Below are positions 16,314 to 43,998 of a DNA stretch of 64,000 bases, one piece after another. The notes under the pieces are model-generated. The model ran no database searches, was not told where the DNA came from, and saw only the letters and a program-made list of their open reading frames with translations. The DNA comes from Gonium pectorale (Eukaryota; Chlorophyta; Chlorophyceae; Chlamydomonadales; Volvocaceae): the NCBI GenBank assembly GCA_001584585.1, contig LSYV01000002.1, forward strand, positions 5,236,921 through 5,300,920, written 5' to 3'. A program made the translations under genes and the position numbers. The first letter of the stretch is position 1, and the number at the start of each line of letters is the position of its first letter.

Positions 16314-16990
16314 TCATTTAAGGATGTTTGCTAACCATGCGTCATATTTGCGCTCCCACTCCGCATACTCAGGCGGCTTGTCGTACGAGCTCTGCTTCGT
16401 TAGGGGATTGAAGTAGTAGGTCAGCACGTAGGACGAATCTTGCGGATACGGCATGGTGCGCTTCTGACAAACCGGGGGCGGCGGCTCCGGGTTGTTGCGG
16501 ACCTCATTGCTGAAGCGGTACCTGCTGTCCCCGGGCTGCATTTGCGGTAGGCGTGCAAATGCGTCCGGTGGGAGCACCTGCAGCGTATACAAGACGTTAG
16601 AACGCTGCCATAGTGACGGACCGCAGGGATGAAGGAAGGCGGCAAGCGAACGGAGAGGCTCCCAAGGGCGCGAGGAAGCCTTCGGCAGAGAGTGTGTTAC
16701 GTCGTGCGAATATGCGTGCGGCAGAGAGTGTGTGTGTTGCTCAAAGCAAGCTAAAGAAGCCTAACCTGTTTGGCGATGCCATCGTCACCGGGCCGCTTGG
16801 GGGCCGAGCCCGGAGCTACAAAGACTGGCGTTTCCGCGGTGCCGCCAAGATTGGTGTCAGTGCCTCCCGGTTGTGGCAGTGTTTGCGGCGCAGCCGCCGC
16901 CTGTTGCGTTCCCGCCACTGTCGCCCGCTGCGCCTCGCGAGCCTTGCGCCGCTCAGCTGCCTTGGCCGCTGCTGCGGCTGCCGCTTGGTC
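16314..16990 (-). other. C-terminal Ala-rich segment and WW-like end of the giant protein
   Basis: After PLAT 20 come an Ala run inside a Lys/Arg-rich helix ([20 protein letters not shown]) and a Pro/Gly-rich spacer. The last exon (16577-16314) carries [18 protein letters not shown], which matches the YYxNxxTxxxxWxxP half of a WW domain but with Tyr for the second Trp. It ends [11 protein letters not shown]. Confidence 0.6.
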
Positions 16991-43900: not shown

Positions 43901-43998
43901 GGTGAGTATCCCGGTGCTCCAGCCACTGCTCCTACTTGCACAGACGCTGCGAGCGGATGGACTCCTGCCCCTCGCTGGCGACCCGCGCTGACTTCCAT
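16314..43998 (-). CDS. Giant EML / multi-PLAT protein (EF-hand-like, double beta-propeller, about 20 PLAT domains)
   Basis: One gene of about 28 kb with dozens of exons, by far the largest here. Domain order from the N-terminus: a Gly/Pro-rich exon, a short basic exon, an EF-hand-like module, an EML double propeller (FVYGYAG hydrophobic motif, then about 12 WD blades ending [18 protein letters not shown]), a Pro-rich/charged linker, 20 PLAT/LH2 repeats, an Ala-rich segment and a WW-like end. EML proteins bind microtubules; PLAT arrays occur in LOXHD1, which has 15 and works in stereocilia. No lipoxygenase catalytic domain is present. Junctions checked for phase: EML last exon (ends 37777, phase 0) to linker exon 37537-37326; linker (phase 2) to exon starting 36538; exon 17311-16766 to final exon 16577-16314. 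The start is the least certain part: ATG 43998 splices in frame to [13 protein letters not shown], but the first exons could belong elsewhere. I estimate roughly 3,500 residues. Two genes split near 37.5 kb is the main alternative; an intact donor after the last WD exon argues against it. Confidence 0.75.
16990..17590 (-). repeat. PLAT/LH2 domain 20 (divergent subtype)
   Basis: [59 protein letters not shown] and [12 protein letters not shown]. The HDNSG motif reads WHDGSG. Confidence 0.8.
17560..18070 (-). repeat. PLAT/LH2 domain 19 (divergent subtype)
   Basis: [57 protein letters not shown] and [12 protein letters not shown] in one long exon, followed by a Pro/Gln-rich spacer of about 50 residues. 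Confidence 0.8.
18350..18995 (-). repeat. PLAT/LH2 domain 18 (divergent subtype)
   Basis: [57 protein letters not shown] and [17 protein letters not shown]. The TSDxR strand is replaced by TGSMF. Confidence 0.8.
19090..20025 (-). repeat. PLAT/LH2 domain 17
   Basis: [67 protein letters not shown] and [13 protein letters not shown]. Confidence 0.8.
20005..21095 (-). repeat. PLAT/LH2 domain 16
   Basis: [69 protein letters not shown] and [19 protein letters not shown] is changed to TGD. Confidence 0.8.
21075..22430 (-). repeat. PLAT/LH2 domain 15
   Basis: [61 protein letters not shown] and YFFPCSDWL. Its introns are unusually long, and one holds the hairpin at 22060-22132. Confidence 0.8.
22060..22132. 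repeat. Perfect 19-bp inverted repeat (hairpin) inside an intron
   Basis: Arms 22060-22078 and 22114-22132 (left arm core ggtgttgggcgctggtgc) with a 35-nt spacer, in an intron of PLAT domain 15. A short ATGCGGGT(T/C) tandem lies just upstream at about 22008-22030. Confidence 0.85.
22410..22985 (-). repeat. PLAT/LH2 domain 14
   Basis: [70 protein letters not shown] and [15 protein letters not shown]. Confidence 0.85.
22970..23905 (-). repeat. PLAT/LH2 domain 13
   Basis: [75 protein letters not shown] and [15 protein letters not shown]. Confidence 0.85.
23880..24775 (-). repeat. PLAT/LH2 domain 12
   Basis: [80 protein letters not shown], then a DRDGDGIPD loop. Confidence 0.85.
24755..25895 (-). 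repeat. PLAT/LH2 domain 11
   Basis: [66 protein letters not shown] and [15 protein letters not shown]. Confidence 0.85.
25880..27115 (-). repeat. PLAT/LH2 domain 10
   Basis: [77 protein letters not shown] and [19 protein letters not shown] loop follows the last helix region. Confidence 0.85.
27100..27945 (-). repeat. PLAT/LH2 domain 9
   Basis: [56 protein letters not shown] and [17 protein letters not shown]. Confidence 0.85.
27930..28885 (-). repeat. PLAT/LH2 domain 8
   Basis: [63 protein letters not shown] and [15 protein letters not shown]. Confidence 0.85.
28870..29560 (-). repeat. PLAT/LH2 domain 7
   Basis: [63 protein letters not shown] and [14 protein letters not shown]. It lacks the usual HDNSGxGxxWHL, having an expanded Gln/Gly-rich loop before WGLESVEV. 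Confidence 0.8.
29710..31268 (-). repeat. PLAT/LH2 domain 6
   Basis: [31 protein letters not shown] in a very short exon, [31 protein letters not shown] and [15 protein letters not shown]. Confidence 0.85.
31350..32470 (-). repeat. PLAT/LH2 domain 5
   Basis: [51 protein letters not shown] and [14 protein letters not shown]. The RGAG core reads KFAG. Confidence 0.8.
32450..33685 (-). repeat. PLAT/LH2 domain 4
   Basis: [60 protein letters not shown] and [15 protein letters not shown]. Confidence 0.85.
33680..34950 (-). repeat. PLAT/LH2 domain 3
   Basis: [64 protein letters not shown] and [15 protein letters not shown]. Confidence 0.85.
34945..35829 (-). repeat. PLAT/LH2 domain 2
   Basis: [71 protein letters not shown] and LYPVGTKD. 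Confidence 0.85.
35826..37357 (-). repeat. PLAT/LH2 domain 1
   Basis: [61 protein letters not shown] and VFPCGHWF. It departs from the consensus NNFERG (DNFSRG). Confidence 0.8.
36539..37325 (-). other. 787-nt GC-rich intron interrupting PLAT 1
   Basis: Much longer than most introns of the gene. It contains a perfect 9-bp inverted repeat with a 4-nt loop (36653-36661 and 36666-36674) and a 214-codon minus-strand frame with no family resemblance. It may carry an inserted element. Confidence 0.6.
37326..37537 (-). other. Linker exon joining the EML propeller to PLAT 1
   Basis: 212 nt. Begins [17 protein letters not shown], has a run of six prolines, then a Lys/Glu/Arg-rich stretch ([18 protein letters not shown]), and ends in the first PLAT strand [10 protein letters not shown]. 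It enters at phase 0 and leaves at phase 2, matching its neighbours on both sides. This exon is the direct evidence for the fusion. Confidence 0.85.
37777..42320 (-). other. EML-type double beta-propeller (TAPE-like) region
   Basis: Blades in order: a truncated HELP motif [11 protein letters not shown] (about 42010), [20 protein letters not shown] (41650), [20 protein letters not shown] (41320), [18 protein letters not shown] (40830), [20 protein letters not shown] (40660) with [29 protein letters not shown] (40100), [20 protein letters not shown] (39560), [20 protein letters not shown] (39320), [20 protein letters not shown] (39010), [20 protein letters not shown] (38720), [12 protein letters not shown] (38120) and [17 protein letters not shown] (37880). 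Order and wording match EML1-type proteins, including the [16 protein letters not shown] and FxxPxNRW-VGGKD landmarks. Confidence 0.85.
42420..42695 (-). other. EF-hand-like module of the giant protein
   Basis: One exon encodes [20 protein letters not shown], then [19 protein letters not shown]. This is the helix-loop-helix rhythm of an EF-hand pair (aligned hydrophobics, DSQG turn, YDLF). The loop lacks a full set of acidic ligands, so calcium binding is doubtful. Confidence 0.55.
42825..43998 (-). other. N-terminal exons of the giant gene (tentative)
   Basis: Contains [12 protein letters not shown] (43998), a Gly/Pro-rich exon, then [20 protein letters not shown] (about 43620-43680), then [18 protein letters not shown] (about 43225-43310) and [20 protein letters not shown] (about 42840-42910). 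The pieces join in plausible phases but I recognise no domain. Confidence 0.45.

Follow-up and report, generated by a model that had tools for sequence, protein, structure and literature searches.

The propellers of EML proteins bind tubulin, and PLAT domains bind lipids, often together with Ca2+. Tandem PLAT arrays are known from LOXHD1, a multi-PLAT protein of hair-cell stereocilia. According to a review, the transition-zone proteome of Chlamydomonas includes two lipoxygenase-homology proteins, POC2 and MOT51 (PMC4888484), and both are named as transition-zone components in a second review (PMC6970386). POC2 is Cre10.g436000, labelled 'Polycystin-related' and placed at the transition zone (PMC5430608); this localisation is also reported in a study where antibodies to POC2 were used (PMC6215392). 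We analysed a stretch of 64,000 nucleotides from the colonial volvocine green alga Gonium pectorale (GenBank assembly GCA_001584585.1, contig LSYV01000002.1, positions 5,236,921 to 5,300,920 of the forward strand), which we refer to as the window and in which a single minus-strand gene at 16314..43998 encodes a complete EML double beta-propeller followed by an array of PLAT domains. We find that this EML-PLAT chain is a conserved architecture uniting two known families. The database entries of the fused family carry the names hypothetical or lipoxygenase-homology protein, and labels such as 'PLAT' or 'lipoxygenase homology' conceal the EML half.

The EML-PLAT gene and the joint between its halves

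A preliminary description of this DNA, made from the letters alone, had proposed one giant gene joining an EML propeller to about 20 PLAT domains, and the spliced model upholds it. From 43998 to 16314 on the minus strand, 83 exons join in one open frame; its 11,364 coding bases, stop codon counted, correspond to 3,787 amino acids with no internal stop. Of the 82 introns, 80 are GT-AG and two are GC-AG. For training, the spliced-gene predictor was given 214 + 50 kb of Gonium genome sequence, in which 20,332 bases are N. We refined its exon list by imposing a minimum exon length and by placing or extending exons manually from the reading frames. The deposited protein and orthologues guided the placement of exons 1-4 and of the complete last exon.

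The gene is deposited with segments missing as GPECTOR_1g774 (P0001; relatives are cited by their P numbers), which matches the window in long blocks at 100 % identity. In the full alignment it shares 3,313 of 3,333 aligned residues with the model. When the deposited protein is aligned with the model, Astrephomene P0002 and Chlamydomonas schloesseri P0006, it is found to be without 11 internal stretches of 11-75 residues and without about 79 residues near the N-terminus. The model itself aligns with P0002 over 3,751 residues (3,076 identical) and with P0006 over 3,739 residues (2,905 identical). Translation starts at an ATG at 43998 (MEVS...); 13 codons before it, the unspliced DNA has a stop in the same frame, and the final stop codon is at 16314. 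Exon 1 is absent from the deposited protein, and its MEV start resembles the starts of P0002 and P0006. Because the deposited protein begins later, at MNSNYG, confidence in the precise start is lower than for the remainder of the gene.

The EML part ends at 37777 and the following exon begins at 37537. Between them lies a joint intron of 239 bp in phase 0 (37538..37776, minus; GAG/GTGAGT ... CTCAG/GTG), followed by a linker exon (37326..37537, minus) which encodes a charged linker and the beginning of PLAT 1. We judged the joint on its splice sites, on relatives and on conservation. Of the 3,853 GT dinucleotides of the strand, 13 reach the donor score of 7.7, as do 27 of 387 predicted donors. 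The acceptor score of 5.7 is reached by 83 of 3,940 AG dinucleotides and 186 of the 387 predicted acceptors, both scores deriving from the same self-trained predictor model. In P0002-P0006 (Astrephomene, Pleodorina, Edaphochlamys, Tetrabaena and C. schloesseri) the joint reads EAQDE[VI]V..[KR]PP[VL]P[ED]VYVY[EQ]AP[KR]R, and volvocines conserve the sequence on either side of it.

The two halves had also been described as running together without an intervening stop or start. This stands for the spliced frame, which crosses the joint without a stop. The methionine from which a separate PLAT gene could be translated is not conserved: P0002-P0006 have V at its position, both Dunaliella have I and Chlamydomonas sp. 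UWO 241 has T. For the genomic DNA the description does not stand, as every frame of the joint intron contains stops, which is nothing unusual for an intron, and the linker exon carries an ATG close to its start.

Two further arguments for a single gene were dropped. The algal poly(A) signal TGTAA is absent from the 239-bp joint intron, where only about 0.13 occurrences are expected by chance, so that this absence carries little weight. The merging of the two halves by the predictor was set aside as well, since the predictor also fused neighbours that are clearly separate.

Domains of the predicted protein

The model gives one match to an EML profile built from 13 relatives with Gonium excluded, covering positions 1-645 of 645 at 1,077 bits. 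A full EML double propeller in a single chain with the PLAT array is thus borne out, and with introns included it occupies 37777..42039 (minus). In the orthologue P0006, whose EML part is 81 % identical to that of Gonium, both propellers exceed the Pfam cut-offs (PF23409, 147.7 bits, cut-off 88.2; PF23414, 339.3 bits, cut-off 90), and residues 339-1010 align to the EML1 structure 4ci8 at 327.5 bits. One Gonium exon alone reaches 108 bits for PF23414, whose cut-off is 90. The HELP motif (PF03451; 41929..42042, minus) scores 50.6 bits for a cut-off of 27 and is the single match found in an exon-wise search of the 129-Mb genome (352 contigs). Since the Volvox EML-only paralogue P0235 has a HELP match, this search may have missed a second EML gene in Gonium. 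The second propeller family matches 59 places in the genome, the best being this gene at 108 bits. A few other PF23414 places also exceed the cut-off together with their in-frame neighbours, and a weaker EML propeller match is located at C124; most of the other places are taken to be other WD40 proteins.

The PLAT array occupies 16991..37360 (minus). With a profile derived from three close orthologues, the 'about 20' PLAT domains (PF01477) become exactly 20, and 20 PLAT stretches are also found in P0006. In 17 of the 19 neighbouring pairs the gap is no larger than 6 residues, with an overlap of one residue in some, while the last two gaps measure 16 and 38 residues. In the genome PF01477 is above its cut-off at no fewer than 21 places, at least 10 in the window and at least 11 at one other locus. 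The AGTD loop is present in 20 of 20 repeats (19 of 20 under a stricter pattern). The RGAGTD loop of the repeats is identical in 11R-lipoxygenase, AGTD is kept in 5-lipoxygenase and polycystin-1 has RGSGTT. Mean identity between repeats is 42.5 % at lag 2 compared to 38.3 % at lag 1, and among repeats 8-15 (window 21097-28879, minus) every second repeat is 49-58 % identical. These values suggest that the array grew through duplication of two-repeat units.

Additional elements were found at both ends of the chain. Exons 1-4 (43074..43998, minus) encode an N-terminal tail and a conserved AYWSxNRWGPPG-type element, placed by the deposited protein and orthologues. Exons 5-7 (42180..42907, minus) encode a degenerate EF-hand-like region. 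EF-hand matches below the cut-off occur in the relative P0022 and in the EML-only paralogue P0235; no Pfam match to it was found in Gonium or P0025. The last exon (16314..16577, minus) encodes a WW-like module that remains below the PF00397 cut-off of 26.9 bits in Gonium (21.2), C. schloesseri (23.6) and D. tertiolecta (18.4) and exceeds it in Pedinophyceae sp. (31.8); PF00397 has no match in P0025. The first reading had overlooked both the EF-hand-like start and the WW-like end of the chain, as well as the existence of an already deposited green-algal family. Beyond the gene, inspection by eye places a calmodulin-like gene as the next predicted gene downstream (window 12423-13846, minus) and the end of a separate WD-repeat gene upstream (window 45360-45800, minus).

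Relatives and origin of the fusion

We compiled 254 different proteins as relatives, consisting of the best 120 of 701 matches, the best 120 of 314 matches and all 39 proteins found at E <=1e-60 in a search aimed at short EML proteins. According to the profiles built here, 30 of these 254 listed proteins combine EML and PLAT, 121 are EML only and 103 are PLAT only. Fourteen of the 30 fused proteins have a species name: Gonium, Astrephomene, Pleodorina, Edaphochlamys, Tetrabaena, Chlamydomonas schloesseri, Chlamydomonas sp. UWO 241, Dunaliella tertiolecta, Dunaliella salina, Sanguina, Tetradesmus, Scenedesmus, Myrmecia and Pedinophyceae sp., all of which we take to be chlorophytes. Orthologues are therefore not always two separate genes, the pattern that the same description had named as contrary to a fusion. 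P0007, P0008, P0009, P0026 and P0053 begin within the EML part. P0001-P0006 have 20-22 PLAT domains and D. tertiolecta has 20; the 21 other fused proteins that come from neither Dunaliella nor UWO 241, some of which are truncated, have 6-15. Within the best 120 of 701 matches, Gonium, Edaphochlamys, Pleodorina and Chlamydomonas sp. UWO 241 each have one fused and one PLAT-only giant. No description of the EML-PLAT architecture was found in one open-access library.

The search aimed at short EML proteins revealed EML-only proteins in Cymbomonas, Chlamydomonas eustigma (two), Myrmecia, Volvox reticuliferus and Chlorokybus (by identifier), and none of its 39 proteins has a PLAT match. Green algae have at least two groups of EF-hand-like EML paralogues without PLAT (P0223, P0217, P0230, P0235, P0229).

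A quick tree of the propellers was made from 64 rows, namely 39 EML-only proteins chosen from the 121 and 25 of the 30 fused proteins; P0008, P0009, P0015, P0026 and P0053, each without a single match across the propellers, were left out. Twenty-four of the 25 fused propellers form one group beside the green EML-only paralogues with a Shimodaira-Hasegawa-like approximate likelihood ratio (SH-aLRT) value of 97, SH-aLRT being the only support measure used for the grouping. The remaining fused protein, P0022, falls outside this group and sits with the EML-only P0231, so that two label changes are needed on the tree. With 24 fused rows grouped together and P0022 apart, the fusion looks old within chlorophytes, possibly with a second event or a loss. 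P0022 is perhaps an independent fusion.

A proposed tether and its comparison with known systems

The other PLAT locus of the Gonium genome (C12:1303421-1318839, loci L010 and L011) contains a second giant multi-PLAT gene, whose predicted protein has 17 PLAT matches and no EML match. Sod_Fe_C is found at four places in Gonium, the best of which (C12:1322236-1322544) is about 3 kb from this PLAT-only locus; the others are on C6, C15 and C98, and none of the four is on the contig of the EML-PLAT gene. Chlamydomonas FSD1 is Cre10.g436050 (PMC4972966). Given that a Fe-SOD-type gene adjoins the PLAT-only gene in Gonium and that the POC2 and FSD1 gene numbers are adjacent in Chlamydomonas, the C12 gene is probably the POC2 counterpart. 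As there are two PLAT loci and two lipoxygenase-homology proteins of the transition zone, with POC2 assigned to the other locus, the EML-PLAT gene is, by elimination, probably the counterpart of MOT51.

We hypothesize that this chain of about 3,800 residues is a microtubule-membrane tether, likely at the ciliary transition zone, where it would be the MOT51 counterpart alongside POC2, and we give this proposal an even chance of being right. The tether function is a well-motivated hypothesis, with location and mechanism inferred. The EML end would attach to tubulin or to microtubules, the 20-domain PLAT array may bind membrane lipid via many weak contacts, probably with Ca2+, and the WW-like end may recruit a partner. 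Located at the transition zone with POC2 nearby, such a protein would link the doublet microtubules to the ciliary membrane. Since EML-PLAT is conserved in a lineage with Chlamydomonas genetics, the tether idea is directly testable.

Y-shaped linkers join ciliary microtubules and membrane, and in a 2012 review the details of their protein structure are described as 'as yet uncharacterized' (PMC3555838). In Chlamydomonas both Y-links and wedge connectors have been seen (PMC9271036), in a paper whose main text mentions neither POC2 nor MOT51. It is conceivable, if improbable, that EML-PLAT is a core part of these Y-links or wedge connectors, with the propellers on the doublets and the 20-PLAT rod pointing outward to the membrane, together with POC2.

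The ciliary role guessed in the preliminary description is thus favoured by transition-zone proteomics and gene neighbourhood, while its key step, the identification of MOT51, was reached by elimination. Several points weigh against the tether. The link to MOT51 is indirect, the adjacent gene numbers are likewise indirect evidence for POC2, and the Gonium Fe-SOD-type gene is a candidate FSD1 orthologue. The genome PLAT search ran exon by exon, so that its counts are lower bounds. EML proteins without an N-terminal coiled coil may bind tubulin dimers and not microtubules. Green EML paralogues without PLAT exist, two of them in Chlamydomonas eustigma, a species with no fused protein among the matches listed, and none of the 60 listed of 231 PDB matches is named as an EML-PLAT protein. 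One fused protein, P0022, stands apart from the main fused group. The fusion is also present in Tetradesmus and Myrmecia, which are mostly non-motile. This last point, and the indirect identification of MOT51, would suit a single protein that acts as a cytoplasmic or cell-cortex linker from rootlet or cortical microtubules to the plasma membrane, an alternative that we consider possible and rather doubtful, given that the two multi-PLAT loci of Gonium match two lipoxygenase-homology proteins of the transition zone.

Alternatively, the protein may belong to the ciliary base and its PLAT array serve as a protein scaffold or spacer rather than as a membrane binder. The AGTD loop, which in PLAT domains is involved in lipid and Ca2+ binding, is kept in all 20 repeats and is common to 11R- and 5-lipoxygenase, which makes this unlikely even though the spacing of most repeats, 0-6 residues, suits a rod. 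Far less probable still, to the point that we hardly credit it, is that two neighbouring genes, one EML and one LOXHD1-like, have been joined by gene prediction alone. The strong in-phase splice pair, the unconserved ATG, the conserved joint sequence and the single-chain relatives of 14 named species all contradict it, including D. tertiolecta P0007, which from its accession type is presumably a transcriptome record. What two genes would explain are the all-frame stops in the intervening genomic DNA, the ATG early in the linker exon and two EML-only records at the identity level of the family, though both are short pieces: P0227 of Volvox reticuliferus, partial and 82 % identical, and P0233, a transcriptome open reading frame labelled complete (465 amino acids, 59 % identical) with HELP and the first propeller only. 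The latter record counts against the tether as well.

Compared to known systems, the proposed tether shares with POC2 (Cre10.g436000) the lipoxygenase-homology label of its entries, but the probable Gonium counterpart of POC2 has 17 PLAT matches and no EML match. Green-algal EF-hand-like EML paralogues, Vretimale_17844 of Volvox reticuliferus among them, likewise have an EF-hand-like region followed by EML and fall into neighbouring tree groups, but have no PLAT match. LOXHD1 resembles EML-PLAT in its tandem PLAT array, and entries named LOXHD1 show about 30-34 % identity across the spans that align. No EML match was found among the 103 PLAT-only proteins listed, LOXHD1 entries included, whereas EML-PLAT is not a PLAT-only chain and has a full EML part before its 20 PLAT domains and a WW-like end after them. 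With EML/EMAP proteins (EML1, structure 4ci8; EML5/6) it has in common the HELP motif and both propellers. Unlike EML1-4, which carry an N-terminal trimerising coiled coil at the corresponding position, EML-PLAT has an EF-hand-like region there, and it adds to the EML plan 20 PLAT domains and a WW-like end.
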